Assembly (NCBI RefSeq): GCF_000365425.1
Contig: NZ_AQOV01000002.1
Location: 806,001-870,000, forward strand
Direction: 5' to 3'
DNA length: 64,000 nt
From: Methylomonas sp. MK1
GTDB taxonomy: Bacteria > Pseudomonadota > Gammaproteobacteria > Methylococcales > Methylomonadaceae
Positions 45,181 through 64,000 of this stretch are shown here, piece after piece; within the stretch, counting starts at the first letter, position 1, and each line of letters opens with the position of its first letter. The notes below the pieces were generated by a model. That model was not told where the DNA came from. It saw only the letters and a list, made by a program, of their open reading frames with translations, and ran no database searches. The position numbers were made by a program, and so were the translations under genes.

Positions 45181-45265
45181 GCCGACGTGGTGAAATTGGT
45201 AGACACGCCATCTTGAGGGGGTGGTGACGCAAGTCGTGGCGGTTCAAGTCCGCCCGTCGGTACCA
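45181..45265 (+). tRNA. tRNA-Leu (anticodon GAG)
   Basis: An 85-nt tRNA with an encoded CCA end. The acceptor stem pairs GCCGACG with CGTCGGT. The D arm has AAATTGGTAGACAC. The anticodon stem CCATC/GGTGG (one G-T pair) encloses loop TTGAGGG, giving anticodon GAG at 45215-45217. A class II variable arm (about 13 nt) and GGCGG-TTCAAGT-CCGCC complete it. Placement after secG is conserved in gammaproteobacteria, and its 3' end is a favoured integration site, which fits the integrase just downstream. Confidence 0.96.
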
Positions 45266-46422: not shown

Positions 46423-46925
46423 CCGCCGACCTGCTGCTACCGCCATTGGAACTACTCCGACCAATTCCGGCAGTGGCCTGGATTCCGCTGGCGATTCTGA
46501 TGTTCCCATCCACCGAATTGTCGATGACCTACATCACCTTTACCGGCGCCTTATTCCCGATTTTGCTGAACACCATCCACGGCGTGGCCGGCGTCGATGC
46601 CCGTCTGCTGGCCTCGGCGCACAGCTTGGGCGCCAATCGAATCGCAATGTTTTATGAAGTGATATTGCCGGGCGCGGCGCCGAATATCTTCACCGGTTTA
46701 TCGATAGGCATGGGCACCGCCTGGTTTTGCCTAGTCACAGCGGAGATGATCGCCGGGCAATTCGGCATCGGCTACTACACTTGGTCGGCCTACACCATTC
46801 AGAATTATGCCGGCATCGTGGTCGGCATGCTGCTGATCGGCGGTCTGGGCATGCTCAGCAGCCAATTGGTCAAAAAGCTCGGCCACGCCTTGACGCCCTG
46901 GCATCGGCCGCAGGCAAAAGCCTGA
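46414..46925 (+). pseudogene. ABC transporter permease, 3' half only
   Basis: The frame from about 46414 encodes the C-terminal half of an SsuC/TauC/NrtB-type inner-membrane permease: LLRPIPAVAWIPLAILMFPS is the family's EAA-loop entry, and four or five hydrophobic segments follow. The N-terminal membrane helices are missing because the sequence upstream is integrase. About 170 residues of an expected 260-290 remain. Its stop (TGA) overlaps the start of the ATPase gene (TGATG), as in an intact operon. A fragment like this is unlikely to work. Confidence 0.85.
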
Positions 46926-47716
46926 TGAGCCATACCGAACCAGGCCGGGTCGACATCGAAAACTTGTCGATTACCTTAGGCAGCGGCAAGCAAGCCTTCG
47001 AAGCGGTTCAGAACGTCAGCGTCTCGATAGCCCCCGGCGAGTTTATTTGCCTATTGGGCCCGTCCGGTTGCGGAAAATCGACCTTGTTAAGCGCGCTGGC
47101 CGGACATTTGCCGGCCAGCAACGGTAGCATCTGGGTCGACGCCCAGGCGATCAACAGACCCGATTCGGAGCGCGGCATCGTCTTTCAGCAACACACGCTG
47201 TTCCCGTGGAAATCGGTGATCGACAACGTAGCATTTGGCTTGAAAATGAAAGGCATCCCGCGCGACGCCCGCCATGAGCAAGCGCGCGAGTTGTTAAAGC
47301 TGGTGGGGCTGGCCGGTTTCGAAGAGCACTATCCTGCCCAATTATCTGGCGGCATGCAGCAGCGGGTCGAGATCGCCAGGGTGCTGATCAATTCGCCCAA
47401 GGTGATACTGATGGACGAACCCTTCGGCGCGCTGGACGCGCAGACCCGAATCATGATGCAGCAGTTGCTGCTGCAGGTTTGGGAGCGCTTCAACACCACC
47501 ATCGTGTTCGTCACCCACGATATCGACGAGGCCCTGTTTCTGGCCGATCGTATTTTGGTGATGAGTGCCCGGCCGGGCCGAATCGTCCAAGACCTTGCTT
47601 TGGACTTTCAACGTCCGCGCGCTGCCGAATTGATTACCTCGGAAACTTTCATGCACCTCAAGCGCCATTGCCTGCAGCTATTGCATCTGCAAGATTCCGA
47701 GTTGCAGTTGCCGTAA
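46925..47716 (+). CDS. ABC transporter ATP-binding protein (sulfonate/nitrate/taurine type)
   Basis: A 263-residue ATPase of the SsuB/TauB/NrtD group. Walker A GPSGCGKST, Q-loop FQQHTLFPWKS, signature LSGGMQQR, Walker B VILMDEPFGALD and H-loop THDIDEAL are all intact. ATG at 46925 overlaps the permease stop. The gene itself is complete, but its permease is truncated and no binding-protein gene remains beside it, so it is probably an orphan left by the same deletion. A second, complete transporter of the same type is encoded at 54257-56870. Confidence 0.9.
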   Translation: MSHTEPGRVDIENLSITLGSGKQAFEAVQNVSVSIAPGEFICLLGPSGCGKSTLLSALAGHLPASNGSIWVDAQAINRPDSERGIVFQQHTLFPWKSVIDNVAFGLKMKGIPRDARHEQARELLKLVGLAGFEEHYPAQLSGGMQQRVEIARVLINSPKVILMDEPFGALDAQTRIMMQQLLLQVWERFNTTIVFVTHDIDEALFLADRILVMSARPGRIVQDLALDFQRPRAAELITSETFMHLKRHCLQLLHLQDSELQLP

Positions 47717-49989: not shown

Positions 49990-51423
49990 CTAATCTTCAA
50001 CCAAGGCCCGATAATGATCCGCCTGAACTTTACCCTCCACCGAATAGGTGCGCACGTCGCTGGTGATGGGCAGCATAGTCGCATTCCAGGCCTCCCATTG
50101 TTGTTTGAGCCGGGTAAACACCTCGGGATTTTTTTCCGCCAGATTGGCGCGTTCGCGCTGATCGGCGGCGACGTCGAACAGAAATTCGTTGTCGGCGATT
50201 TTCAGATATTTCCAGTCGCCAGAGCGCACGGCATGTTGTTTGTTGGCCTTGTAACGCCAAAACAGGGTGCGCGGATGCGGATTCTCGTTGCCAAGGATCA
50301 CCGGCAGCAGGTTTTCCCCATCGGGTTGATACGCGGCATCCGGCGCGCCAGCAGCGGCGGCCAGCAAGGTCGGCAGCCAATCCATGCTGATCGCCACTTG
50401 CTCCGTCACTTGGGCTGGTTTTATTTTTTCCGGCCAGCGTACGATCGCCGGCACGCGGATGCCGCCTTCGAGCAGCTCGGATTTCTGACCGGTAAAAGGC
50501 CAAGTTTTGGAGAAGCGCTCGCCGCCGTTATCGCTGGTGAACACCACAATGGTGTTTTGACCCAGCCCGCGTTGCTCCAGAGTTTGCAAAACCCGGCCAA
50601 TAGCGGCATCCAACGTAGTGACCATCTTGGCGTAGGTCGCCAGATTGCCGCCGTCGTAATGAAACAAGCTTTTGATTTCCCTTGAAGCCGCTTCGTCTTG
50701 TGGCCCTTCCCATGGCCAGTGCGGCGCGGTGAAATGCAGGGACAGGAAAAACGGTTTGCCGGCGTCCTGTTTGCCGATGTAATCAACGGCGCGGTCGGCA
50801 AGCAGATCGGTGTAATAACCCACCTGATGCACCGGCACTTCGCCCTCGAACAAATCATCCCTGGCATTCTCGCCACTGCCCGATTTATGGGTGAAATAAT
50901 CGATGGCACCGCCGTAGTTGCCGAAAAACACGTCGTAACCGCTTTTTAATGGGCCGAATTTCGGCAGGGAACCCAGATGCCATTTGCCGAATAAGGCTGT
51001 GGTGTAGCCGCTTTTCTTCAACAACGAGGGCAAGGTCGGATGTTCCGGTGGCAAGCCGATGGTCTCCGAGGCGCCGGCGATGGGCTCTTCCAAACCACCG
51101 CGCAACCGGTATTGATAGCGGCCGGTTATCAAGCCAAACCTCGTTGCCGAGCAGACCGCCGAGTTGGAATAAGCCTGGGTAAAGCGCAGTCCTTGCTGGG
51201 CAAGTGTGTCAAGCTGCGGGGTTTGAAAATCGGTTTGACCGTAGACGCTCAAATCGCCGTAACCCAAGTCGTCGGCCAAAATGAAAATGATATTGGGCTG
51301 GCTTTTTTTATCGGCGGCAAACGGAAAATTCCAGCTAGACGCTACTGATGCCAGCGAGAGCGCCGAGAGCCCTTTCAGCACTCGGCGGCGATTGTTGTTG
51401 AATGAACTCAAGGCTTCTTCCAA
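49990..51423 (-). CDS. Exported arylsulfatase (formylglycine type)
   Basis: A 477-residue sulfatase. The N-terminus has a twin-arginine-like signal (NNRRRVLKGLSALSLASVASSW), which suggests export in folded form. The metal site IIFILADDLGYGDL is followed by CSATR, the C-x-A-x-R motif whose Cys becomes formylglycine. Other active-site residues are in GKWHLG and VVFTSDNGGERFS. It hydrolyses sulfate esters in the periplasm. The natural substrate is unknown. It needs a formylglycine-generating enzyme, not seen in this window. It is 43 bases after the arylsulfotransferase-like gene. Confidence 0.92.
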   Translation of the reverse strand: MEEALSSFNNNRRRVLKGLSALSLASVASSWNFPFAADKKSQPNIIFILADDLGYGDLSVYGQTDFQTPQLDTLAQQGLRFTQAYSNSAVCSATRFGLITGRYQYRLRGGLEEPIAGASETIGLPPEHPTLPSLLKKSGYTTALFGKWHLGSLPKFGPLKSGYDVFFGNYGGAIDYFTHKSGSGENARDDLFEGEVPVHQVGYYTDLLADRAVDYIGKQDAGKPFFLSLHFTAPHWPWEGPQDEAASREIKSLFHYDGGNLATYAKMVTTLDAAIGRVLQTLEQRGLGQNTIVVFTSDNGGERFSKTWPFTGQKSELLEGGIRVPAIVRWPEKIKPAQVTEQVAISMDWLPTLLAAAAGAPDAAYQPDGENLLPVILGNENPHPRTLFWRYKANKQHAVRSGDWKYLKIADNEFLFDVAADQRERANLAEKNPEVFTRLKQQWEAWNATMLPITSDVRTYSVEGKVQADHYRALVED

Positions 51424-51466
51424 TGTGAAATTTAAATAGTCGGCATGAAACTGTACGGCGCTAAAG

Positions 51467-52885
51467 TCAAGGATTGGCCGGAACGCGATACTGGGTGATG
51501 TCCTGCGCTTTTACCGGTTTCTCGGCGTGCGGCGTGCCGGCTGGCGTCCATTCATACGGCACCGGCTGCGCGCGATATACGGTGTTGCTGGATATTTGCT
51601 GCGGATCGTCGGCGCGCGGTTGGTTGAAATAGGGACTGATATATTCCCAGACGATTTCACCCTTGGCGGTTACCTGCAAAAAACGGCCATTCATACCTTC
51701 GTCGATCAGGGTATTGCCGTTTGGCAAACGACGGGCGCTGCTGATATAGGAGCTATAAAAGGCATAATTGGGGCGGCCGGAATCGGCGCCGGTATATTGC
51801 CAGACGATTTCTTTTTTGATCGGGTCGATCTCCAGCACCCGCGAACCGAGTTGACCACCTACGCCCAATTTAACGGGCGGGTAGCCGGCTTCGCCCTGGT
51901 TGTCGAACACCAATAAATTGCCTTCGCCGGGTAGGCCTTTGGGGATAATATGGGCATCATGTTGGCCGCTGATCTGGTCCACCGGTCGCGGCACCTTGTT
52001 CTCGAAACTGGCCGGCGTAAAATCCGGACCTATGCGCCAGACCACCTTGCCGGTTTTTTTGTCGATAATCGCGATGAAATTGGCTTCGCGCGAATCGATC
52101 AATAAATTATCGGGATGAAAACGCTGGTCGCCGGCATCGAACCATTTGTTGGGACCGACGACGGACATATTGTTGAAGTGCAGGTAGTCGAACGGCTTGG
52201 TCTTATCGTTGCCGCGGCCCAGGGTTTGATGCAGATATTTTAGCGAGGCCTTGCTAAAGCCAAACTCGTTTAAGTGATCGTAGGCATGCCATTTCCAGAC
52301 CACCTGGCCTTTCGGATCGACTTCATAAATGCCGTCATCCAACAATTTTTCGGCCTTGAAGCCTTTGACCTGCTTTTCGTAGTTGATCAAAATCACGGTA
52401 TTGCCGTTGGGCAGTCTGCGCCAATCGTGATGTTGCCTGATGGCCGTACCGTAACCGTTGCTGTCGTTGCTGTTGCCGGAGGCCCCGTAAGTATCTTGAG
52501 CTTTGGCTCCGCCCCACTGCCAGACCACCTTGCCGTCCCAATCCACTTCGCCTATGGATTGCGCTTCCTTATTATTGGCTCCGCCGCCGGTTGCGCCGGA
52601 AAACTGCAACAACACATGGCCCTGCTGGCCGTTGACCAATTGCGGATCGAGGAACAACGGCGGTTGACCGGAGTTGGCCCATTGATGTACCTCGTTACCG
52701 TTCAAGTCGATCAGATGGGTCTTCCGGTCGGCACCGGAAAACAGCACATAACTGTTATAGGCTTTGCCGGGATCGTAGCGAGTGACGCCGGTGGGATAAA
52801 TGCTGGGCGCCGCGAATGCGTGATTCGCCGATACCGTGGCAATAGCCAGAGCTAACGCAGCTAGTTTGGGATGTTTGTTAAGCAT
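51467..52885 (-). CDS. Arylsulfotransferase-family (ASST) protein
   Basis: A 472-residue exported protein with a signal peptide ending near ANHAFA. The body is made of repeated beta-propeller blades such as WDGKVVWQWGG, GQVVWKWHAYDH and KEIVWQYTG, with HHDWRRLPNGNTV and GQHDAHIIP (active-site-type His), as in bacterial arylsulfate sulfotransferases (ASST/arylsulfotransferase family). Those transfer sulfate from aryl sulfates to phenols without PAPS. ATG at 52885 is chosen over a TTG one codon earlier. It likely forms an operon with the arylsulfatase. Confidence 0.85.
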   Translation of the reverse strand: MLNKHPKLAALALAIATVSANHAFAAPSIYPTGVTRYDPGKAYNSYVLFSGADRKTHLIDLNGNEVHQWANSGQPPLFLDPQLVNGQQGHVLLQFSGATGGGANNKEAQSIGEVDWDGKVVWQWGGAKAQDTYGASGNSNDSNGYGTAIRQHHDWRRLPNGNTVILINYEKQVKGFKAEKLLDDGIYEVDPKGQVVWKWHAYDHLNEFGFSKASLKYLHQTLGRGNDKTKPFDYLHFNNMSVVGPNKWFDAGDQRFHPDNLLIDSREANFIAIIDKKTGKVVWRIGPDFTPASFENKVPRPVDQISGQHDAHIIPKGLPGEGNLLVFDNQGEAGYPPVKLGVGGQLGSRVLEIDPIKKEIVWQYTGADSGRPNYAFYSSYISSARRLPNGNTLIDEGMNGRFLQVTAKGEIVWEYISPYFNQPRADDPQQISSNTVYRAQPVPYEWTPAGTPHAEKPVKAQDITQYRVPANP

Positions 52886-53243
52886 CAAGCCAGTTCCTGT
52901 AAATTAAAATCGAAAAAACGTAAGGGATTCCGTCATCGGCCAATGATTTTGCAATCGCCGATACGATAGTGACGAAGGCAGCGCAACTTCCATACCAGCG
53001 TATGGATCGAGTGGCGAAATCGGTTTGCGGCCAACAAAGGCAGCTTGCAACCAGCTGATTACATGCGTTTTTTAGGACTTTTGATTTTATAAGCGGGCAG
53101 CAAACTCCCTTATCGGTGCCTGTGAAAGGCGTTAAATATGATGGTAAATCAACACCCATTCAGCAATGGGGTTCGGATATCAACAGGTGAAGCTTGCAGT
53201 TTGATGCTCGCGAAGCCGGCGTTCAAATTCAATGGCGCACTTG
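52886..53243. other. Gene-free gap before the ASST gene
   Basis: 358 bases between the HEAT-repeat stop and the ASST start on the minus strand. It should hold a promoter for the ASST-sulfatase pair. A small hairpin CCATAC/GTATGG is at about 52990-53005. Frames on both strands look random. I found no operator resembling the one at 60832-60863. Confidence 0.4.
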
Positions 53244-54218
53244 TCATCGGTTGCCGCAAATGACGGTATCGATGCGCGTCAGGGCGATGCGAGCTAGTTT
53301 ACGGACTTCCGGGTCTGGGTCGGCTTCGGCGGCGGTCAACGCCGGTATCGCGGCCTCGGCGCCAATTTCGCCAAGCGCGATCGCGGCTTCCTTGCGCAGG
53401 TTGCTGACCGAATGCGCCAACGTTTCCAACAATGCCGGCACTGCATCAGCATGGCCGATTCTGCCGAGTGCGCGGGCCGCGCGCAGGCGTACCTGCCAGT
53501 AGTCGTCGTTTAGTGCGGCAATCAGCGCGGGCAGCGATTCAGCGAATCTCAGTTTGCTCAGGGTCGAGGCCGCCTCCTCCCGCACTACCCAGGAAGAGTC
53601 TGTTAAAACCACAAGCAGGGCCGGCAGTACGGTTTGATCGCTGGCCATGCCCAGCGCGCCGGTCGCGGCGCGCCTGACTTCGCTGTCGGGATCGTGTTCG
53701 GCCAAGTCCGCCAAATTGGGCAAGGCCTGCGCGTATTTTAACCAGCCTAGCACGCCCACCGCCTCGCGCCGCACCGAGGCATCGCTGTCGGCAAGCGCCG
53801 CCAATGCCGGTGGCGCTGCCTCAGGCAAACGCAGCTCTCGCAATGCCCGCAATGCGGCGGCGCGAACAAAGGTACCGCCATGTTCCAGCCGAGGCAGCAA
53901 CTGTAATCCCGCCGCACTAGTTTTTATGCTCGACAGGCTTTGCGCGGCTGCCGCGCGCACCGCTTCGTCGGCGTCGAGCAGCAAATCGGCCAACGCGGTG
54001 ATCACCGGGGCGTCTTCCCAGCCGGCCAGCAGCGCCGCTACTTCGGCGCGCACTTCCGCCTCCTGATCGTTGGCGGCCTGTATCAGCCAAGGTAAATGGC
54101 TTTCGTCCTCCGCATCTGCCAATTCGATCAACGCAAGCCTGCGTACCGTGGCATCCGTACTGGTAAGGCGCGGCATTACCGGGGCAAGGCTGGGATTGTC
54201 GGAAGAAATATCGGTCAT
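53244..54218 (-). CDS. HEAT-repeat protein
   Basis: A 324-residue protein built of about nine HEAT/PBS-lyase-type repeats of 30-31 residues (examples DSDASVRREAVGVLGWLKYAQALPNLADL and DDYWQVRLRAARALGRIGHADAVPALLETL). No signal peptide or membrane segment is seen, so it is cytoplasmic and probably a scaffold for protein contacts. It follows the ABC binding-protein gene by 38 bases and is transcribed with it. A link to the flavoprotein or transporter is inferred from position only. Confidence 0.85.
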   Translation of the reverse strand: MTDISSDNPSLAPVMPRLTSTDATVRRLALIELADAEDESHLPWLIQAANDQEAEVRAEVAALLAGWEDAPVITALADLLLDADEAVRAAAAQSLSSIKTSAAGLQLLPRLEHGGTFVRAAALRALRELRLPEAAPPALAALADSDASVRREAVGVLGWLKYAQALPNLADLAEHDPDSEVRRAATGALGMASDQTVLPALLVVLTDSSWVVREEAASTLSKLRFAESLPALIAALNDDYWQVRLRAARALGRIGHADAVPALLETLAHSVSNLRKEAAIALGEIGAEAAIPALTAAEADPDPEVRKLARIALTRIDTVICGNR

Positions 54219-54256
54219 GGTTAGTCGGGTATCCGTGGTTAAAGTGGGTTGAAACT

Positions 54257-55189
54257 CTATTGACCGGGAAAGTCTTGGGCCTGCTTTATCAAACCCAACT
54301 CGTGAAATTGTCCCCAGCGCGCCTGATAGAACTGGCGTAGTTCCGGTGTCAAAGCCAGCAGTTCGGCATTGGCCTGTTCGGCTTTGATAAAGGCCGGATC
54401 TTCGTTAGACGTTTGCCGGACGAATTTGGCGTCGATACGCAATTTCTCGGCAAACCAAAGGCTGGCTTGCTCGTGGTTTTGAGCGGTATAAACCACCGAT
54501 TCCCGTAGCGCCGCCAGATAAAGCTCGCGGGCATTCGGCAACTTTTGCAAATATTCGCTACGCAAAACAGTCAGGAAATGAAACGGCCAGCTTTGAATCG
54601 AGCGTGCGCCGAATTGTTCCTTAACCCGAGTCGCCTGCGGTTCGCGGATCACTGCCGCATCGACCTGTCCCTGGGCGATCAGTGCCGGCAGTTCGGCGGG
54701 CGGGGTGTTAATCAGTTCCACCTCGTCCAGCTTCAGACCGTTTTGCCGCAGCGCGAGCAGCAGGTCCGCATAGGAATCCGAGCCAACGGACGCGGCAATT
54801 TTCTTGCCTTTTAACTCTTGGAGCGCGTTGGCGCTGCTGCCTGCCGGCACTAGCAAAGAATGGCTGGAAAACCCAAGCTGGCCGACAACCACCGCCTTGT
54901 TGGGCTGCTTATCCAGGAAGGTGGCAATCGGTAACGGACTGCTCACTACCGCGTCGAGCTGGCCGGCCGCCAGCGCTTCCATCATCGGCGGACCGTTTTG
55001 GAATACCTGGAACTCGGCATCCAGACCATGTTTGTTGGCGATACCGGCCATTTCCATCACCACCGGGTAAATGCCGTTCAGGCCGGATGGATAGCCGATT
55101 CTGATCTTGACACTTTCCTGGGCCGTTGCGCCCAAGGACGACGTGAACAGCAGAAAAGCGGAAAGCATACGCAGCGTATAAAAAGACAT
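54257..55189 (-). CDS. ABC transporter substrate-binding protein (sulfonate/nitrate type)
   Basis: A 310-residue periplasmic binding protein with a signal peptide (MSFYTLRMLSAFLLFTSSLGATA) and the two-lobed fold of the SsuA/TauA/NMT1 family (IRIGYPSGLNGIYPVVMEMAGIANKHGLDAEFQVFQNGP; MMEALAAGQLDAVVSSPLP; LKGKKIAASVGSDSYADLL). No lipobox, so it is free in the periplasm. The neighbours suggest an organosulfur ligand. The sequence alone does not fix it. Confidence 0.88.
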   Translation of the reverse strand: MSFYTLRMLSAFLLFTSSLGATAQESVKIRIGYPSGLNGIYPVVMEMAGIANKHGLDAEFQVFQNGPPMMEALAAGQLDAVVSSPLPIATFLDKQPNKAVVVGQLGFSSHSLLVPAGSSANALQELKGKKIAASVGSDSYADLLLALRQNGLKLDEVELINTPPAELPALIAQGQVDAAVIREPQATRVKEQFGARSIQSWPFHFLTVLRSEYLQKLPNARELYLAALRESVVYTAQNHEQASLWFAEKLRIDAKFVRQTSNEDPAFIKAEQANAELLALTPELRQFYQARWGQFHELGLIKQAQDFPGQ

Positions 55190-55192
55190 GAT

Positions 55193-56014
55193 TCAAGTTT
55201 TATTTGGGTGATTAGCCTGCCAGGGCAAGACGATCCGCTCGATGCGGACCAGCGCGAAATTCATCACCGATCCCAAAACGCCGATGGTAACCATGCCCAC
55301 CAGCACTGCGCCGGTATCGAGATTGATGCGATGAATTTGAATCATGTAGCCCAAGCCGGACTGGGCAGCGACTAGTTCGGCGGTCACCACGGCCATCCAG
55401 GACTGGCCCAGGCCGATCTTCAAGCCGGTCCAGATCTGCGGGAAGGCGGCCGGCAGGAAAACCCGCAGCAATAAATCGGCCTTGCCAGCGCCCATGAAAC
55501 GAGCAGCATGGATGTATTGAGGCTCGACGCCGAGGCCGCCAGCGAAAGCATTCAGAAAAATCGGAAAAAAGGCGGCAAGCGCGGTGATAAAAAAGCTGGA
55601 ACCGTTGTTGATGCCAAACCATAAAATCGCTAGAGGAATCCAGGCGATGGGTGGAATCGGCCGCAACAGCGTAACGATGGGCAGCAGCAAACGCCGCAGG
55701 GTGGCGAAATAGGCCATGCTCAGCGCCAGCGGCACCGCCAATATCACGGCTAAAAAGAAGCCGATCAACACCCTCTCCAAACTGGCCATTATGTCTTTCG
55801 ACAGACTATTGTCGTCGATTAGCTGCCGGAGGCTGGCCACTACCGTGATCAGATCCGGCAGCAACACCGGATTGTCGACTATTTTGGCGGCGAGCAGCCA
55901 CACCAGCAGAAACCAGCCATAGCTGACCAGCGGCCAGCCCAAGGCGGCGCACAGTCGTTTGGCTTGACGACGGCCTTGTTGCAGCACGGAGTTGGAATCG
56001 ATTGCCGGCATCAT
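55193..56014 (-). CDS. ABC transporter permease (sulfonate/nitrate type)
   Basis: A 273-residue permease with about six hydrophobic segments. The family landmarks LLRPIPPIAWIPLAILWFG and VVTAELVAAQSGLGYMI are present. It is three bases from the binding-protein gene and four bases from the ATPase gene. It is complete, unlike the fragment at 46414-46925, which aligns with its C-terminal half. Confidence 0.9.
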   Translation of the reverse strand: MMPAIDSNSVLQQGRRQAKRLCAALGWPLVSYGWFLLVWLLAAKIVDNPVLLPDLITVVASLRQLIDDNSLSKDIMASLERVLIGFFLAVILAVPLALSMAYFATLRRLLLPIVTLLRPIPPIAWIPLAILWFGINNGSSFFITALAAFFPIFLNAFAGGLGVEPQYIHAARFMGAGKADLLLRVFLPAAFPQIWTGLKIGLGQSWMAVVTAELVAAQSGLGYMIQIHRINLDTGAVLVGMVTIGVLGSVMNFALVRIERIVLPWQANHPNKT

Positions 56015-56018
56015 TAGC

Positions 56019-56870
56019 TCAACGGTTAAACACTTTCAGACTTTCTTCCCTGACCGCGCGGTGGATGGTCTTGCGCAAGTTTTCGAATCCGGGTGTGTTT
56101 AGGGTTTCCGGAGTGCGCGGGCGCGGCAGGTCGATGGCGATGTCGGCCTTGATGCCGCCGGGTTCGGTGCGCATCACGATTACCCGGTCGGCGAGGTAGA
56201 TAGCTTCGTCGACGTCGTGCGTGATGAACACCACGCTGGTGCCGAAGCGGTCCCAGATTTTCAACAGTTCTTCCTGCATCACGCTGCGGGTTTGCGCATC
56301 CAGCGCGCCGAAGGGTTCATCCATCAACAGCAGAGTCGGCTTTGTCGCCAAGGCGCGGGCAATCGCCACCCGTTGTTGCATGCCGCCGGATAGCGCGTTC
56401 GGATAGGCCTTGGCAAAGCGTTCCAGCCCGACCAGCCGCAGCAGGTCCAAAGCGATGCTTTCCGGCTCCGGCAATCCTAGTCTGCGCGGCCCGAACGACA
56501 CGTTTTGCAAGGCGGTCAGCCAGGGAAACAGCGAATGTTGTTGAAACACCACGTTGCATAATGGCGTTGGTTCCTTGACCGCCACGCCATCGATGCTCAC
56601 CGTGCCGGTGGTGGGCTTGAGCATGCCGGAGACGATATTCAGCAAGGTCGATTTGCCGCAGCCGGACGGGCCGAGCAAGGCGGTAAAGGCGCCTGGCTCC
56701 AGTTCCAGATTAACGCGGTCGAGAGCGGTATGCTCGCGTTCCAAACCTTCAAACACCATGGACACATCGCGCAAGAAAATCCGCCCCCGGCCGCTACGCA
56801 GCGACGGTACGCTGCCTGCAAACGCGGTATTTATCGCCGGATTGGCTTGGCTTGCGGTGGAGTTCAACAT
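56019..56870 (-). CDS. ABC transporter ATP-binding protein (sulfonate/nitrate type)
   Basis: A 283-residue ATPase with Walker A GPSGCGKST, Q-loop FQQHSLFPWLT, signature LSGGMQQRVAIARALA, Walker B LLLMDEPFGALD and H-loop THDVDEA. An N-terminal extension of about 30 residues precedes the core. It pairs with the permease and binding protein to make a complete importer in the SsuABC/TauABC group. It starts nine bases after the sulfotransferase stop. Confidence 0.92.
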   Translation of the reverse strand: MLNSTASQANPAINTAFAGSVPSLRSGRGRIFLRDVSMVFEGLEREHTALDRVNLELEPGAFTALLGPSGCGKSTLLNIVSGMLKPTTGTVSIDGVAVKEPTPLCNVVFQQHSLFPWLTALQNVSFGPRRLGLPEPESIALDLLRLVGLERFAKAYPNALSGGMQQRVAIARALATKPTLLLMDEPFGALDAQTRSVMQEELLKIWDRFGTSVVFITHDVDEAIYLADRVIVMRTEPGGIKADIAIDLPRPRTPETLNTPGFENLRKTIHRAVREESLKVFNR

Positions 56871-56879
56871 CGTCCGGCC

Positions 56880-58034
56880 TTACAGTACGACTTCGCTGCC
56901 GGTATAGACGCGCTTCACGCCGAAATGCTCTTTCCACCGTCGTTGGGCCCGGTAGCCGGCGATTTCCTCTTCCTGTGGGTGGCCATGCGGAAATTCGGCG
57001 GGCACGTCGCGGTCCGACCACAGTCCGCGCCGCTTGCGTTCCAGGCGCTGGTCGATCAGCCAGTCGTTGTAGCTTTCGTGCACCAGATGGCCGTCCGGCG
57101 CGCCGAGCAGCGCCGCGCGGGTGCGTTGGTCGCGCTCCAGGTACAGGTTTAATTCCTTTTCGTCGATCGTAACCGGCTCGACGTCCAGCGCGTAGCCGGC
57201 TTCAGTTAACTCCTGGCCGGCGATGGCGGCGAAGATGGCTTGTTCTTCCAGACTCAATTCGCGACGATAACGGTTTATCCATTGGGTGCTGACCGGTTGA
57301 CCCAGCGGGGCGTGATCGCGGGTTTGGCCGCGGCGTTGGGCGATGGTGCCGTGATGAAAGTCCAGCAAGGCCGGGGAAAATTCTTCGCGGAGAAACTCGC
57401 ATACGGCCCGCAATACCGTCTGCGGGTCGCGGGCCAGTTGTTCGTAGCTGACGTCCAGCCATTGCCCGGCGTCGAGCTTTTCCCGCCAGGGTTTTACCGC
57501 GTTCTGGCATAGTTTCCAGATACGTGCCGCCGCGTAAATATTGGTGGGGCCGAATGCGGAACGCAGATATTCTGCGCTGGCGTCGCGACCGTCGCGGGTA
57601 AGAAATACAAACTGCGCATTAGGAAAGTCTTCCAGAATCTGCCCGACATAAAACAGGTTGTGCGGAGTTTTTTCACCCCAGCGCGGCTTGTTTTGCAGGC
57701 GTGCATAGCGTTCGAACATCGCGGTATAAATCCCGGCGAAACTTGGTTCCGGCGCGCTAGCCAAAATCTCGTCGACGATATTCGCCGGATTTACCGGCAT
57801 ATCCCAGAACGGCGTCTTCAGCCCGAACACCATTTCATCGGCCAGAGTGCGTAAATTCTGGGTTTGCGATAAATCGCCGTAGCTGAACAGATACGGCCGA
57901 AAACGCGGGTAATACCAGGCCACCTCCGGCACGGCGATACAGGGGTGATTGCTCAGCATAGCCATTAACAACGTAGTACCGGAACGCTCCGAGCCGATGA
58001 TGAATAGTGGTCGTTGCTTCAATGTAATTGCCAT
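56880..58034 (-). CDS. P-loop sulfotransferase family protein
   Basis: A 384-residue protein of the sulfotransferase fold. The 5'-phosphosulfate loop is FIIGSERSGTTLLMAMLSNHP at residues 12-31. FVFLTRDGRDASAEYLRS (about residue 140) fits the 3'-phosphate-binding RDxRD-like region. Such enzymes use PAPS, but some relatives bind other adenosine phosphosulfates. There is an added C-terminal part of about 130 residues. Cytoplasmic, with no signal peptide. Found between the transporter and the APS-reductase-like genes, so it may use the imported substrate or make its acceptor. Confidence 0.85.
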   Translation of the reverse strand: MAITLKQRPLFIIGSERSGTTLLMAMLSNHPCIAVPEVAWYYPRFRPYLFSYGDLSQTQNLRTLADEMVFGLKTPFWDMPVNPANIVDEILASAPEPSFAGIYTAMFERYARLQNKPRWGEKTPHNLFYVGQILEDFPNAQFVFLTRDGRDASAEYLRSAFGPTNIYAAARIWKLCQNAVKPWREKLDAGQWLDVSYEQLARDPQTVLRAVCEFLREEFSPALLDFHHGTIAQRRGQTRDHAPLGQPVSTQWINRYRRELSLEEQAIFAAIAGQELTEAGYALDVEPVTIDEKELNLYLERDQRTRAALLGAPDGHLVHESYNDWLIDQRLERKRRGLWSDRDVPAEFPHGHPQEEEIAGYRAQRRWKEHFGVKRVYTGSEVVL

Positions 58035-58100
58035 AAAATTTTCTCGATTTTTTATCCCTACGCCGCAAGAAACGGCAGGATTAAATGGGTTTGCTTTGTG

Positions 58101-58349
58101 CTAACGGAGCAAATAGGGAATCTCCACGCTCACAGCTCCGGTTGGACAATCCTTCTCGCACGGCAGGCAGTACCAGCATTCGTCAAAGGTCATCTGGGCC
58201 TTGCCGGTGAGCGGATTGATCGCCAACACGTCGAGCGGGCAGGCTTCCACGCAGACCGTGCAGCCCTTGTCGGCGATGCATTTGTTCTCGTCGATAGTGA
58301 CCGGCACATTGCTACGCTGAATCGCGGTGGGGAATGAGGATTTGCTCAT
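58101..58349 (-). CDS. Ferredoxin with two 4Fe-4S clusters (AprB-like)
   Basis: An 82-residue ferredoxin. The first cluster motif is CIADKGCTVCVEACPLD, with a long first gap. The second is CWYCLPCEKDCPTGAV. Both the spacing and the CWxC form resemble the ferredoxin part of AprB, the beta subunit of adenylylsulfate reductase, without its C-terminal tail. ATG at 58349 overlaps the flavoprotein stop (ATGA), so the two are coupled. The frame open upstream is an artefact of the overlapping gene. Confidence 0.87.
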   Translation of the reverse strand: MSKSSFPTAIQRSNVPVTIDENKCIADKGCTVCVEACPLDVLAINPLTGKAQMTFDECWYCLPCEKDCPTGAVSVEIPYLLR

Positions 58350-60088
58350 GATGCAACGGCCTCCGGTGCGTTGGTGGGATTGATGCGTAAACGTTGGTAG
58401 GCGGTTTTTTCCTGGTCGTCGACCGGGATGACATAGGGTTCCAATGATCGTTTGAAGCAGGCCATTTCGCCGCCGGCATTTTTGTGCAATTGCACATGCA
58501 CCAGCCAGTCGGCGTCGTTGCGCTCCGGGTAATCCACCCGCGCGTGGTAAAGCCCCCAGCGGCTTTCGGTGCGGTACAGCGAGGCGCGCGCTGCCATTTC
58601 CGCGCAATCGCGGATTGCGTGTACTTCCATCGCTCGCATCAGTTCGTGGGGATTGTTGGCGTGCAATACGGCCAGGTCATCGCGGATGCTATTGAAGCGT
58701 TCCAGACCGATTTCCATCTTGCGGGTGACTTTCGGCGGCTGCAGATAATCATTGACCATGCGCCGCAGTTTGTATTCGACTTGGGCCGGCGGCAGTCCTG
58801 ATTCGCGCTGCAGGGGTGCCCACACCCGTTGCCGTTCGGCGTCCAGTTGCGCGGCATCGACCTCAGCCTGGCTATGATCGTTGGCATGGCGCGCCGCCGA
58901 TTCGCCGGCAAAGCCGCCATAAACAAAAGCGCCGAGCATGTAGTTGTGCGGCACGCAGGCCAGATCGCCGGCCGCATACAGTCCCGGCACGGTGGTGGCC
59001 GCGTGTTCGTCTACCCAGACCCCGGACGCCGAATGGCCGCTGCATAGGCCTATCTCGGAAATGTGCATTTCCACCATGCGTTCCCGGTAATTGGTGCCGC
59101 GCCCGGCATGAAAACGGCCGCGACTGGGACGCTCGTTGCCGTGCAAGATGGTTTCGATGGTGCCTATGGTTTCCTCGGCCAGATGATCCAATTTCAGGAA
59201 CACCGGGCCGTTGCCGCTTTGCAATTCGTTGTAAAACTCCTGCATCATCTGCCCGGACCAGTAATCGCACTCGATAAAGCGCTGGCCCTTGCTGTTGGCG
59301 GTATAGCCGCCGAACGGGCCGGTAACATAGGCACAGGCCGGGCCGTTGTAGTCCTTGATCAGCGGATTGATCTGGAAGCATTCGATGCCAGACAGTTCCG
59401 CGCCGGCGTGATAGGCCATGCTGTAACCGTCGCCGGCGTTGGTCGGGTTTTCGTAGGTGCCGAACAGGTAACCCGATGCCGGCAGGCCCAAACGACCGGC
59501 GGCGCCCGTAGCCAATACCACGGACTTGGCCTTGATCACATGAAAATCTGCGGTGCGGCAATCGAACGCAAACGCGCCGGCAATGCGACCGTCCTGACCG
59601 ACGATCAAGCGGGTGGCGACCAGGCGATTGGTGATCTCGACGCGGTTGCGCTTCAATTGCCGGTACAAAATCTTTTTAATGTCATGGCCTTCCGGCATCG
59701 GCAGCACGTAAGTACCCATGTGGTGCACCTTTTTCACTGCGTAATCGCCGGTTTCGTCCTTTTCGAACTTCACGCCCCAGCGGTCCAGCTCCTCGATCAT
59801 CGCAAAACTGTTTTGCGCGTAAGCCAGCACGGTTTTCTGATTGACGATGCCGTCGTTGGCGACGGTGATTTCCCGCACGTATTGTTCCGGCGTGGCATGA
59901 CCGGGCACCACGGCATTGTTCAGGCCGTCCATGCCCATGGAGATGGCGCCGCTACGTTTGACGTTGGCTTTTTCCAGGAGCAGCACCTTCAGATTCGGAT
60001 TGGCCTGCTTGGCTTTGACGGCCGCCATCGGCCCGGCCGTGCCGCCTCCGATGACTAGTACATCCACTGAGTGTTCTATCGTATTCAT
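58346..60088 (-). CDS. AprA-like flavoprotein (fumarate reductase / APS reductase alpha family)
   Basis: A 580-residue flavoprotein. The FAD-binding fold opens with VLVIGGGTAGPMAAVKAKQ, and the second FAD region is VPGLYAAGDLACVPHN. The RSGAISMGMDG stretch after the first loop resembles AprA, and the C-terminal domain is helical as in the fumarate reductase/AprA family. A ferredoxin of the AprB type is encoded at the overlap. The enzyme probably reduces or oxidises a small sulfur substrate in the cytoplasm. Whether it is APS is not shown, and key residues were not checked by alignment. Together with the sulfotransferase it defines the unusual core of this cluster. Confidence 0.82.
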   Translation of the reverse strand: MNTIEHSVDVLVIGGGTAGPMAAVKAKQANPNLKVLLLEKANVKRSGAISMGMDGLNNAVVPGHATPEQYVREITVANDGIVNQKTVLAYAQNSFAMIEELDRWGVKFEKDETGDYAVKKVHHMGTYVLPMPEGHDIKKILYRQLKRNRVEITNRLVATRLIVGQDGRIAGAFAFDCRTADFHVIKAKSVVLATGAAGRLGLPASGYLFGTYENPTNAGDGYSMAYHAGAELSGIECFQINPLIKDYNGPACAYVTGPFGGYTANSKGQRFIECDYWSGQMMQEFYNELQSGNGPVFLKLDHLAEETIGTIETILHGNERPSRGRFHAGRGTNYRERMVEMHISEIGLCSGHSASGVWVDEHAATTVPGLYAAGDLACVPHNYMLGAFVYGGFAGESAARHANDHSQAEVDAAQLDAERQRVWAPLQRESGLPPAQVEYKLRRMVNDYLQPPKVTRKMEIGLERFNSIRDDLAVLHANNPHELMRAMEVHAIRDCAEMAARASLYRTESRWGLYHARVDYPERNDADWLVHVQLHKNAGGEMACFKRSLEPYVIPVDDQEKTAYQRLRINPTNAPEAVAS

Positions 60089-60091
60089 GGT

Positions 60092-60829
60092 TTATCGCTC
60101 GATTCGTGCGCGTAGTTGAAAGTTATCCGCTCGGCAATACAGATATTCGAAATCCAGCGGCGCCCCGTCCTTGGTGTGCGTCAGACGTTCGATACGTAAC
60201 ACTGGAGCGCCGTCGAGTATCCGAAGCAATTCCGCCAATTCGGCATCGGCCAACACGGCATCGATGGTGAGATCGGCATACCCCAAGGGAATGGCATAGT
60301 CGTTTTCCAAAATCTGAAAGATGTCGCGAGTGGCGAGATTTTCCTGGGCTAGCCGCTTACCGAGATGTGCGGCCACATAAGTCACATCCAACGATACCGG
60401 CTGGCGGTTTAGATGGCGTACCCGCCTTAGTTCAGTAATCGGCGCGCCTTCCGCCAGACCCAGTCGTTGTGCAACATCGGGGCCCGCTGGCAGATCTTTG
60501 ATACTGACCAATAGGTTGTAGATTTCATGTCCTTGTTCCGAAAGTGCCTCGGCAAAACCCTGGAGGCGGGCCAGCGATTGAAAAGGTTTAGGCAGGGAAA
60601 CAAACATGCCTTTGCCAGCCACCTTGAACAACATCCCCTCTTTTTCCAGCTCGCCCAAGGCCTGGCGCACGGTGATGCGGCTGACGCCATAGCTGCTCAT
60701 CAGGTCGCTTTCCGAAGGCAGGCGCTCATGCGGTTTATAGGCGCCAGCAACGATGCGCGTCCTCAATTCATCGCGTATGCGGGCGTATAAGGAGCCGGGC
60801 GGCGTGATGTGGGTTTTAGCAACAGACAT
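60092..60829 (-). CDS. GntR-family regulator, HutC type
   Basis: A 245-residue repressor-type protein. The N-terminal winged helix (LPSESDLMSSYGVSRITVRQALGELEKEGMLF) is typical GntR. The C-terminal UTRA ligand-binding domain (about residues 95-240) marks the HutC subfamily. It is the first gene of the minus-strand sulfur block, three bases before the flavoprotein gene. A palindromic site lies directly upstream of its start, so it probably controls its own operon and responds to a sulfur or carbon intermediate. Confidence 0.88.
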   Translation of the reverse strand: MSVAKTHITPPGSLYARIRDELRTRIVAGAYKPHERLPSESDLMSSYGVSRITVRQALGELEKEGMLFKVAGKGMFVSLPKPFQSLARLQGFAEALSEQGHEIYNLLVSIKDLPAGPDVAQRLGLAEGAPITELRRVRHLNRQPVSLDVTYVAAHLGKRLAQENLATRDIFQILENDYAIPLGYADLTIDAVLADAELAELLRILDGAPVLRIERLTHTKDGAPLDFEYLYCRADNFQLRARIER

Positions 60830-60831
60830 TC

Positions 60832-60863
60832 AAATCATAACTTGTCATTACGGGTTATGATTT
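60832..60863. promoter_or_regulatory. Palindromic operator candidate for the GntR regulator
   Basis: AAATCATAAC at 60832-60841 and GTTATGATTT at 60854-60863 are perfect inverted copies with a 12-base spacer. They are just upstream of the gntR start (60829), where a repressor site would block both RNA polymerase and translation of the leader. Confidence 0.65.
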
Positions 60864-61240: not shown

Positions 61241-61716
61241 GTGCGCCGTGCAAAGGCGGCGCTTGACCAGTGGGTGAGAGACCCACCCGGCTAAATCGCT
61301 CCGGCCGGAAGCAATCGGAGCAGTCATGGAGGTAACGAAGTGGCTGAAGCCTTCGATGTAAAGGATCGCTATAGGCGATTCAGCGAGTGTGCAGGCCGTA
61401 ATATGAGTGAACGCTGAGTAAGCCTCGAAAAGGACATCGCGCAGGCCGACCCGACGACCCTTTCGGGGAAGGCTGATACGGCTGGGGAATTGAGCGAAGA
61501 GTGTCTCCAGTCGCTGCGCCGGGGTAGTGGCGACAGCATGTACACAAGGTAAGCGCGCGCAACACGGGAAGCCCTGTGGCGTGGTCAGCGATGACCAACC
61601 GGACGCCCGCGAGGGACAGGCCGGGCGCTGTAGGGTGGCGGAGAGGCTTGTAGTACCGGGGAAGCCGGGTAATGCCGGTGGAGGGAAGGGGCCTTAGTTC
61701 AAGATCAACGCAATAA

Positions 61717-63066
61717 GTGGAAAAGGACAGGAGATTGGGTAACCTATCAACTCCGTTAAGAGTTCAGAAACTACAGATGGCGTTACACGCAAAAGCGAAG
61801 GCTGAAGCTGACTATCGTTTCTATGCGCTGTACGACAAGATATACCGGGAAGACATCTTGGCGCATGCCTACGTCTGTTGCCGGGCCAACAAAGGTGCGC
61901 CGGGCGTGGATCGTCAGGACTTTGCCGATGTCGAAACGTATGGCCGGGAGCGATGGCTTGCTGAACTGGCGTTTGCGCTCAGAGAGGAGAATTACCGACC
62001 GAATCCTATCAGACGTGTTTATATCCCCAAACCGAATGGCAAACTGAGGCCACTGGGTATATCGACCTTACGAGATCGGGTCTGCATGACGGCAGCGATG
62101 CTGATATTGGAGCCGATCTTCGAAGCGGATTTACCCGACGAGCAATATGCCTATCGAGCGGGCCGTAATGCCCAGCAAGCGGTGGGCGAAATCAATCGCC
62201 ATATGTTTAAAGGTCATCTGGACGTCGTTGATGCCGACTTGGCGGATTACTTCGGGAGTATTTCACATGCCGAGCTAATGAAATCGGTAGCTCGCCGTGT
62301 TGTAGATCGACGTGTGTTGCATCTCATCACGATGTGGTTGGAATGTGCGGTAGAAGAAACCGACCGACATGGGCGGACGATACGCACTACCGAGGCCAAA
62401 GATAAGCAACGCGGTATCCCGTAGGGTTCACCCATATCACCCTTACTGTCGAATTTATACATGCGGCGGTTTGTATTGGCATGGAAGAAACTTGGACTGG
62501 AACGGCGGCTCGGCAGTCAAATCGTCACCTACGCCGACGACCTTGTTATCTTGTGTCGACGTGGCAAGGCTGAAGAAGCCTTGTTATGGATGCGTAAGAT
62601 CATGGAGCGGTTGAAGCTCACGGTCAATGAGGAGAAAACGCAAATCTGCAAAGTGCCGGAAGGTGTGTTCGATTTTCTGGGTTACACATTCGGTCTGTTA
62701 TATAGACCGCAAAACGGTAAGCCCTATCTGGGCTACCGGCCATCCAAGAAAAGTATTCGGCGCATGATCGAGAAGGTTCAGGCGTTGACGGCTTATTCAA
62801 TGGCGTGGCATGACACCACGTTGCTGATCTATAAATTGAACCGCATGCTACGCGGTTGGGCGAACTACTTTAGGGTAGGAACCTTCAATCGTGCCTATCG
62901 TGCGCTTGATAATTACACGGCAGCGCGGTTGCGTCGGTGGTTACGCAACAAGTATAAGGTGAGAAAGCGAGCAGGCGGAGGCTATCCATCTTCGTACCTC
63001 TATCAGACCCTTGGTTTGGTACGCTTAAGCCGCTTGGGGCGTGACGATCCGTGGGCGAAAGCGTGA
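61717..63066 (+). pseudogene. Group II intron reverse transcriptase/maturase, broken by an amber stop
   Basis: One continuous frame of 450 codons holds a single in-frame stop TAG at 62422-62424. The first part (235 residues) has RT motifs such as IPKPNGKLRPLGISTLRDR and DADLADYFGSI. After the stop the frame continues [25 protein letters not shown] (the catalytic YADD) and a maturase domain ending [11 protein letters not shown]. The stop replaces the Gln of the conserved RGIPQGSPISP motif, so it is a CAG-to-TAG change. Start is GTG at 61717. No endonuclease domain is seen. Confidence 0.9.
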
Positions 63067-63078
63067 CATCTTGTCCGA

Positions 63079-63112
63079 GAGCCGGATGCGGGAAATCTGC
63101 CAGTCCGGTTCG
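63079..63112 (+). ncRNA. Group II intron domain V
   Basis: A 34-base hairpin starting GAGCCGGATGCGG, with a GAAA loop, and ending in the CCGGTTC complement. This is the catalytic domain V of group II introns, the most conserved RNA part. The match is to the general form (GAGCCG...CGGTTC). It lies 13 bases after the reverse transcriptase stop. Confidence 0.88.
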
Positions 63113-63230
63113 ATGAGCGGGGTGTGGAAACGGGGTTAAGGCAAGGCTATTTGGGCACCGTCAAACGAAAGAGGCGGAAACAGACAAGCTAAACCTAATT
63201 CTACCGCGCCACATCTCGACTCTACCGATT

Positions 63231-64000
63231 CTGTTGAAAAAGTCCCCTAATATACGGTTCCTAAAGTAGTAAAATACAGCTAACAGCCACTCAATCATGA
63301 GGTGACGCCATGATGGGACAACAATCCGGGATTCAGGAGCAGTTGTTTTTCTGTTTCAGTCTCGAAAACCACATTCCCAAAGAGCATCTGCTGCGAGGCA
63401 TTAACCATTTTCTTGACTTGGGTGATTTTCGCCAGCAATTGGCGGAGTTTTACAGTCCTATCGGCCGACCATCGATTGCTCCCGAACTGATGATCCGGAT
63501 GCTAATCCTCGGTTATTGTTTCGGCATTCGTTCCGAACGTCGTCTGTGTGAAGAAGTGCATGTCAACTTGGCTTATCGCTGGTTTTGCAAACTGGATTTA
63601 GACGATCCCGTACCGGATCATTCCACCTTTTCCAAGAATCGCCTGGGCCGTTTTCGGGAAAGCCAGGCTTTTCGGCTAGTGTTTGAAACGGTCCTGAAAC
63701 GATGTATGGCAGAAGGCCTGGTGCGTGGCGAGGGTTTTGCCACCGACGCCAGCATCATCAAAGCCGATGCCCAACGGCAACGTCGAGTAGAAAATGGTGA
63801 CGACATTGACTGGGGCGATCCCGCTCAAGCAGAACGTCCGGTCCGTGAATATCTCGCGGCACTAGAAGAAACGAATGATCCCAAAGAGTCCACCCGGACG
63901 CTTTCACTGACTGATCCGGCGGCTACCTGGACGGCCGCACCCGGTGGCCCCGCATTCTTTGCTTATTCAACCAATTACTTGATCGACTTGGAAGCCGGCA
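63231..64000 (+). mobile_element. IS1182-type insertion sequence, left part
   Basis: The left end is marked by CTGTTGAAAAAGTCCCC at about 63231, a form typical of terminal inverted repeats in IS5/IS1182-like elements, followed by the transposase gene at 63310. The right end lies outside the window, so the full length and target duplication cannot be checked. Confidence 0.7.
63310..64000 (+). CDS. IS1182-family transposase, 5' part
   Basis: The frame starts with ATGATG at 63310 and is open to the right edge (230 codons seen). The protein begins MMGQQSGIQEQLFFCFSLENHIPKEHLLRGINHFLDL and contains GRPSIAPELMIRMLILGYCFGIRSERRLCEEV (DUF772-type N-terminal domain) and DHSTFSKNRLGRFRE, and then GEGFATDASIIKADA with the first catalytic Asp of the DDE set. 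These match IS1182-group transposases. The C-terminal part with the last Glu is beyond the window. Confidence 0.9.
   Translation, partial: MMGQQSGIQEQLFFCFSLENHIPKEHLLRGINHFLDLGDFRQQLAEFYSPIGRPSIAPELMIRMLILGYCFGIRSERRLCEEVHVNLAYRWFCKLDLDDPVPDHSTFSKNRLGRFRESQAFRLVFETVLKRCMAEGLVRGEGFATDASIIKADAQRQRRVENGDDIDWGDPAQAERPVREYLAALEETNDPKESTRTLSLTDPAATWTAAPGGPAFFAYSTNYLIDLEAG

Follow-up and report, generated by a model that had tools for sequence, protein, structure and literature searches.

An AprA/PAPS-reductase-like flavoprotein and its ferredoxin in a likely organosulfur-scavenging module of Methylomonas sp. MK1

The 64,000-nucleotide stretch of Methylomonas sp. MK1 DNA analyzed here (C2:806001-870000 of a 5.2-Mb genome; hereafter the window) carries a minus-strand gene cluster in which a flavoprotein, which we call FlavA, is encoded with a small ferredoxin, a GntR regulator and an ATP-binding cassette (ABC) importer. 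FlavA resembles AprA, the flavoprotein of dissimilatory adenylylsulfate (APS) reductase, and the question that the locus raises is whether it acts on APS, on some other sulfur compound, or on no sulfur compound at all. Our sequence comparisons set the FlavA family beside AprA and the reductase of 3'-phosphoadenylylsulfate (PAPS), with a changed substrate pocket. The module as a whole likely serves organosulfur scavenging. As a more specific reading, to which we give a probability of roughly 0.42, it would be a GntR-controlled scavenging module in which the AprAB-like pair acts as a ferredoxin-dependent reductase on an imported sulfonate-type substrate.

FlavA and its ferredoxin

FlavA (58346-60088, minus strand) matches the NF006131/PRK08275 flavoprotein family over residues 1-571 with 1094.4 bits (cut-off 587), and falls far below the AprA model TIGR02061 (179.5 bits against a cut-off of 641.75). 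In an unrooted tree of 23 hand-chosen sequences with long branches, FlavA groups with AprA and a PAPS-reductase-like protein, while succinate dehydrogenase (SDH), fumarate reductase, NadB and AsfA-type proteins lie elsewhere (support 99/98); the branch of FlavA itself has support of 91/96, and the NadB entry of the tree scores above the NadB family cut-off. The best solved relative of FlavA in both sequence and fold is MtPAPSR, the PAPS reductase of Methanothermococcus thermolithotrophicus (PDB 8a8o). The preliminary description of this locus had called FlavA AprA-like and had named a grouping with succinate dehydrogenase or NadB as the result that would speak against it; the tree and the best solved relatives both place it with AprA/PAPS reductase instead. 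The family is labeled fumarate reductase/succinate dehydrogenase, a name that the tree and the residues described below argue against. Our literature search recognized no functional work on this family, which is, as far as we have seen, named but uncharacterized.

The substrate pocket was compared in an alignment of 91 FlavA sequences (those of the 90 loci described below and that of the window), with the numbering of the Archaeoglobus (Af) AprA counted on the alignments. The equivalents of Af Asn74 (Asn57 in FlavA), Lys267 (Lys245), Asp268 (Asp246), His398 (His352) and His446 (His381) are kept in all 91, and tyrosine stands in every sequence at the positions of Trp234 (Tyr212) and Phe448 (Tyr383). 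We take Asn74 and His398 to be catalytic residues of AprA, and given the retained residues FlavA may keep the chemistry of the clade. The positions of Arg265 and Arg317, presumably the residues that contact APS, are occupied in 91/91 sequences by leucine (Leu243) and methionine (Met281, found by counting back from the GxGP motif with no gaps allowed). Eleven of the 91 have an arginine at position 287, six residues past Met281, so the Arg317 region is not arginine-free in every FlavA. Arg320, Arg323, Gln239, Asn241 and Trp277 are also invariant. In the region of the two AprA arginines, the aligned SdhA (RDVV) and FrdA (RDKV) have an arginine that FlavA is missing as well.

The substrate loop differs as well. 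It reads EGQWQI in AprA, RGKRSI in PAPS reductase and KKVHHMGTYVLPMPEGHD in the FlavA of the window, with close variants in the others, such that the family has neither the APS nor the PAPS version and instead carries KKVHHMGTYVLPMPEG. PMC10322725 ties part of the EGQWQI/RGKRSI loop to whether APS or PAPS is selected, and its statements on contact with APS concern glutamine 145 and loop 104-123. Because the two arginines are replaced by leucine and methionine and the loop is different, FlavA is unlikely to act on either APS or PAPS.

These data bear directly on whether FlavA and its ferredoxin could, like MtPAPSR, serve as an APS or PAPS reductase in assimilation. MtPAPSR is the closest solved relative, it has the same plan of a FAD-containing alpha subunit and a two-cluster ferredoxin subunit, the Asn, His and Lys-Asp residues are kept, and the ferredoxin of its Ilyobacter relative has the CW motif discussed below. 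However, FlavA lacks the KRS loop and the two conserved arginines of MtPAPSR, has an extra HHMGTYVLPMPEG loop, and is encoded beside an importer and a HEAT-repeat protein, not beside sulfate-activation genes. The dissimilatory AprAB, on the same side of the tree as FlavA and with the same subunit plan, differs in that neither the aprA nor the aprB model is matched above its cut-off, in the changed residues at Af 265 and 317, and in that the host genome has a canonical CysH. The cysH gene lies beside gshA, and the genome also has two cysD genes, one of them seen with cysN. With the aprA score, the pocket residues, the missing APS and PAPS loops and the genome's own CysH and CysD all against it, a role as APS or PAPS reductase is very improbable, and handling of adenylylsulfate by the pair is not supported.

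The likeliest coding sequence of the partner, a two-[4Fe-4S] ferredoxin, is an 82-residue frame (58101-58349, minus strand); a 168-residue open reading frame (ORF) was disfavored, as annotated relatives of 75-81 residues fit the shorter frame. Its first cluster motif is C-x5-C-x2-C-x3-C and its second CWYCLPCEKDCP. The pattern of the second, CWxCxxCxxxCP, is common to the window ferredoxin and the Ilyobacter PAPS-reductase-like beta subunit (CWDCTACMKECP), and is not found in two AsfB-type proteins (CQTCFMCEAWCP and CQTCFLCEAHCP). The aprB model TIGR02060 gives 25.7 bits against a cut-off of 135.65. The cysteine spacing had been described as AprB-type; in the alignment with the PAPS-reductase-like and AsfB-type proteins the second cluster matches the PAPS-reductase-like beta subunit, but the first has the C-x5-C-x2-C-x3-C spacing and the score falls short of the aprB model.

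A conserved neighborhood

The genes run in one direction on the minus strand between 53244 and 60829: a GntR/HutC-family regulator with a UTRA domain (60092-60829; GntR 74 bits, UTRA 131 bits), FlavA, the ferredoxin, a P-loop sulfotransferase (56880-58034), the SsuB/TauB/NrtD-like ATPase (56019-56870) and SsuC/TauC-like permease (55193-56014) of the importer, its 310-residue SsuA-like periplasmic binding protein (54257-55189), and the HEAT-repeat protein (53244-54218). From GntR to HEAT the junctions are +3 bases, a 4-base overlap, +66, +9, +4, +3 and +38, with gaps below 10 bases at five of the seven. The gene set, its single direction, the mostly short gaps or overlaps and the complete sulfonate/nitrate-type importer (54257-56870) of the preliminary description were all recovered; the module is larger than first drawn, and takes in two further minus-strand genes downstream, for an arylsulfotransferase of the ASST type (51467-52888) and for a sulfatase (49990-51423). 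Promoter and terminator scans of the window gave no more hits than shuffled sequences (4 against 7.0, and 10 against 14.6).

To compare neighborhoods we used 90 FlavA loci, namely the best 80 by identity of at least 593 relatives and 10 chosen plasmid records (of 99, at 80% coverage or more); the set is biased to close relatives because the 80 were chosen as best by identity. Alignment A2, for the model, held 25 sequences, 24 from the 80 loci and the window's own, with L044, L053 and L057 dropped from the 28 first listed. Homologues of the ferredoxin were found anywhere in the stretch in 89 of the 90 loci, of the HEAT protein in 88, of GntR and the ATPase in 80 each and of the permease in 74; co-directional and within 10 kb of FlavA the counts are 89, 88, 80, 71 and 70, respectively. 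All five are co-directional within 10 kb in 62/90 loci, and in 58/80 of the loci from genome contigs. No homologue of the sulfotransferase or of ASST was found in any of the 90 loci, all outside the genus, and a sulfatase homologue is present in two. Thus the neighborhood is conserved elsewhere once the sulfotransferase is left out of it. Between the window and a second Methylomonas genome (G036), the ratio of nonsynonymous to synonymous substitution rates, computed for nine of the ten genes with the sulfatase left out, is 0.035 for FlavA, 0.009 for the ferredoxin, 0.064 for the sulfotransferase, 0.074 for ASST and 0.091-0.144 for the other five, and these copies are under purifying selection. 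Since the five genes are co-directional in 62 of 90 other loci and selection is purifying, the arrangement is not due to chance.

Other genes recur near FlavA: a binding protein of 470-485 residues in 74/90 loci, a DUF971 gene in 63, FdxA in 15 and an ssuD-like gene in nine, five of these at 60% identity or more; TauE/SafE-type exporters occur in at most two of the 90 loci per query. In L039 and L041 genes for ssuD, a permease, an ATPase, a DszC/SfnB-like monooxygenase and an amidohydrolase lie upstream of FlavA on the same strand. Ten of the 90 loci have near FlavA a GltD-like and FNR-like oxidoreductase of about 1150-1194 residues (for example L008 10574-14035 and L031 16839-20423), which is a candidate electron donor. 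On two rhizobial plasmids (L009 and L015) a DUF971 gene is followed by FlavA, the ferredoxin and HEAT; a Crp/Fnr-type regulator is nearby, and no GntR homologue was found in these two stretches.

The importer of the window is not the one usually seen beside FlavA. An SsuA-like homologue occurs in 52/90 loci, with best matches of 22-31% identity, and the 310-residue protein is unlike the usual 470-485-residue binding protein. It scores below the SsuA-type model TIGR01728 (128.6 bits, cut-off 163.5), and its best PDB match is the sulfonate-binding protein 2x26 (56 bits). G036 has, near the module and beside an amidase, an additional importer of the kind usually found with FlavA, in which a full-length permease follows a 470-residue binding protein; of this importer the window keeps a C-terminal permease fragment and an ATPase (46446-47716, plus strand). 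The HEAT protein is related to the C-terminal part of PRK13800, a model that unites the FlavA and HEAT families in a single chain, where the window has two genes. In L013 (Nonomuraea) a single long ORF gives both FlavA and the HEAT match, and so is a naturally occurring fusion of the PRK13800 kind.

A candidate operator, a palindrome with 10-base arms and a 12-base gap (60834-60861, minus strand), lies just upstream of the GntR gene, and within it a 16-base site (60840-60855) is three mismatches from ACTTGTYATRACAAGT. Across 82 GntR upstream regions (the window, G025, G036 and 79 loci) ACTTGTYATRACAAGT with up to three mismatches occurs in 66, where mononucleotide shuffles average 0.2 of 82, a count that is not an independent test because the consensus was derived from the same regions. 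The 16-mer starts 17 to 92 bases before the GntR start in 50 listed regions. Taken alone, the site in the window is not significant (0.43 such sites are expected there by chance), and the upstream sites of G025 and G036 have four mismatches, none passing at three; the longer palindrome with its 12-base gap is common to all three. In the window, no similar site was found ahead of the ASST and sulfatase genes. The palindrome is thus a probable binding site through which the GntR protein would act on its own gene's upstream region.

Sulfur genes, AsfAB and the substrate of FlavA

The host is a methanotroph, because a pmoA gene is found above the cut-off; two further relatives lie below it. In line with the earlier claim that the neighborhood has no desulfonating monooxygenase or taurine dioxygenase, models for SsuD (TIGR03565) and TauD (PF02668) find no match in the whole genome at E 0.001. 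Compared with ssuEADCB, the locus has a related importer, and the flavoprotein-ferredoxin pair in place of SsuD. The proposed contrast with the ssu pathway holds in this genome; it does not hold generally, as ssuD at 60% identity or more is near FlavA in five of the 90 loci and the two genes co-occur in a sample of the phylum. Of the 398 genomes in that sample, 21 have FlavA above its cut-off (our own included), 67 have SsuD above its own, and 17 have both. SsuD is thus present in 17/21 genomes with FlavA and in 50/377 others, with an odds ratio of 28 (Fisher p 4e-11), and by genus in 9/11 against 26/202 (p 1e-6), both figures ignoring kinship and genome size. Four of the 21, including the window's own, have no SsuD above the cut-off.

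This association raises the alternative that FlavA and its ferredoxin leave the substrate untouched and supply electrons to a desulfonating enzyme that needs flavin or oxygen, SsuD for example, as is thought for AsfAB. AsfAB of Pseudomonas putida S-313 and Cupriavidus metallidurans (Rmet_4334/5) is likewise an SDH-superfamily flavoprotein and a short ferredoxin beside an SsuABC-type importer; PMC2864759 and PMC4267179 describe it as a reductase-ferredoxin pair with an importer and a LysR regulator, which P. putida S-313 requires in addition to ssu for aromatic sulfonates. A pair on the C. metallidurans megaplasmid (L011) is probably Rmet_4334/5, on rough gene order and the gene pair in a record that is itself unannotated, and probable AsfA clusters have the flavoprotein-ferredoxin-importer layout in common with FlavA. 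The probable CH34 AsfA (L011:28214-29863), however, is about 25% identical to FlavA and lies on the SDH side of the tree, its ferredoxin lacks the CW motif, and control is by LysR where FlavA has GntR. With this probable AsfA as the reference, we reject FlavA as an AsfA on identity, tree and ferredoxin motif. Its position off the AsfA branch, a ferredoxin that resembles a PAPS-reductase-like beta subunit and not AsfB, pocket positions invariant in 91/91 sequences, which suggest a substrate of its own, and the genomes with FlavA and no SsuD above its cut-off (in our own, neither SsuD nor TauD gave a match, in a search that did not extend to other oxygenases) make electron supply a rather unlikely role.

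A further alternative is that the module has nothing to do with sulfur, and that FlavA is, like many members of the SDH superfamily, a ferredoxin-dependent reductase or dehydrogenase whose imported substrate is a carboxylate, an amide or some other anion. The absence of the two AprA arginines is in keeping with this, and importers of the NrtA/SsuA type are broad in substrate; amidase genes are found near FlavA in L006, L020 and G036, and an amidohydrolase in three of the 90 loci. But FlavA lacks the SdhA/FrdA arginine too, its place in the tree is on the side of AprA and PAPS reductase, and sulfur genes recur in some FlavA neighborhoods and in the same genomes. We therefore hold a non-sulfur substrate to be unlikely, and retain the reduction of an imported sulfonate-type compound as the preferred reading.

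A genus-specific extension and a proposed route

FlavA is above the cut-off in six of 101 genomes searched, our own included: 3/37 in the genus, 0/24 in the rest of the family and 3/40 in the rest of the order. The three carriers in the genus (G000, G025 and G036) all have the sulfotransferase, ASST and the sulfatase, an extension seen, among the genomes and loci examined, in this genus only. The sulfotransferase matches Sulfotransfer_3 (PF13469) over residues 9-220 with 128.1 bits (gathering cut-off 27) and has a P-loop-like GSERSGTTLL; use of PAPS is predicted. Relatives at 92-93% occur solely in G025 and G036 among the 101 genomes, the next match being 33% identical, and at E 1e-60 one of the 398 phylum genomes, the window's own, has it. 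With this and its absence from the 90 loci, we reject the sulfotransferase as a core part; the suggestion that it and the FlavA pair act on one intermediate is weakened, and keeps in its favor the presence of both in all three carriers of the genus. ASST (Arylsulfotrans 104 bits) has, by eye, a signal-peptide-like N-terminus. Sulfatases with a formylglycine residue carry the motif C-x-P/A-x-R, and the sulfatase (PF00884, 235 bits) has CSATR (C-x-A-x-R), as expected of a formylglycine sulfatase, and a twin-arginine-like N-terminus, both by eye. The second CysD/CysN was considered as a PAPS supply and set aside, since it adjoins DabA-like and LysR genes and not sulfotransferases; an APS kinase gene was not searched for. 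In this stretch (L099 4765-12981; C2 about 300.8-309.0 kb) CysD-CysN lies beside DabA-like, Proton_antipo_M (DabB-like), MarC and LysR genes, an odd association of sulfate-activation genes with genes for inorganic carbon uptake.

In both G025 and G036, ASST and the sulfatase come first and are followed by GntR, FlavA, the ferredoxin, the sulfotransferase, the ATPase, the permease, the binding protein and HEAT; the window differs in having ASST and the sulfatase after HEAT. The importer ATPase gene of G025 (L163 13843-14690) reads in two frames, through a sequencing error or a broken gene. The module was probably acquired horizontally: this fits the higher G+C content (57.1% at 49990-60829, 50.3% at 1-45000 of the window) and the closer identity of FlavA to that of Jeongeupia, Andreprevotia and Silvimonas (86-88%) than to three relatives in the order (76-82%). 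Upstream of GntR, at a distance of about 440 bases, the window has a group II intron (61268-63225) whose reverse transcriptase is split over two ORFs (between 61717 and 63066), and beyond the intron a DUF772 transposase (63310-64000). On the other side, a tRNA-Leu (GAG; 45181-45265) is followed by a truncated-looking tyrosine integrase of 327 residues and the importer remnant, up to 47716, which we read as an integration and deletion scar. The tRNA was considered as an island boundary, which the adjoining integrase fragment favors, and was not accepted, as a search of the window, of 64 kb taken from the same genome (L099-L102), and of L162 and L163 revealed no other copy of the tRNA end.

In the preferred reading the importer would bring in an organosulfur anion, and electrons would pass from NAD(P)H through a ferredoxin and the two clusters to FAD. 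The reduced FAD would attack the substrate's sulfur, in the manner put forward for AprA, and a flavin-sulfite adduct would form and yield sulfite for assimilation. In the genus only, and with less weight, ASST and the sulfatase (probably periplasmic) and the cytoplasmic sulfotransferase might extend the range of substrates to sulfate esters or alter the organic part; these three would stand outside the core reaction. A bolder form, which we hold to be doubtful, is that the FlavA-ferredoxin pair forms a third enzymatic branch within the AprA/PAPS-reductase clade, which in aerobic bacteria removes sulfite reductively, and without an oxygenase, from organosulfonates or compounds related to them, coupled in this genus to a sulfo-group exchange by sulfotransferase, ASST and sulfatase. 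The FlavA genomes in which SsuD is not found above the cut-off make the role of FlavA directly testable, and if FlavA releases sulfite reductively, many bacteria would have a desulfonation route beyond the known oxygenases.

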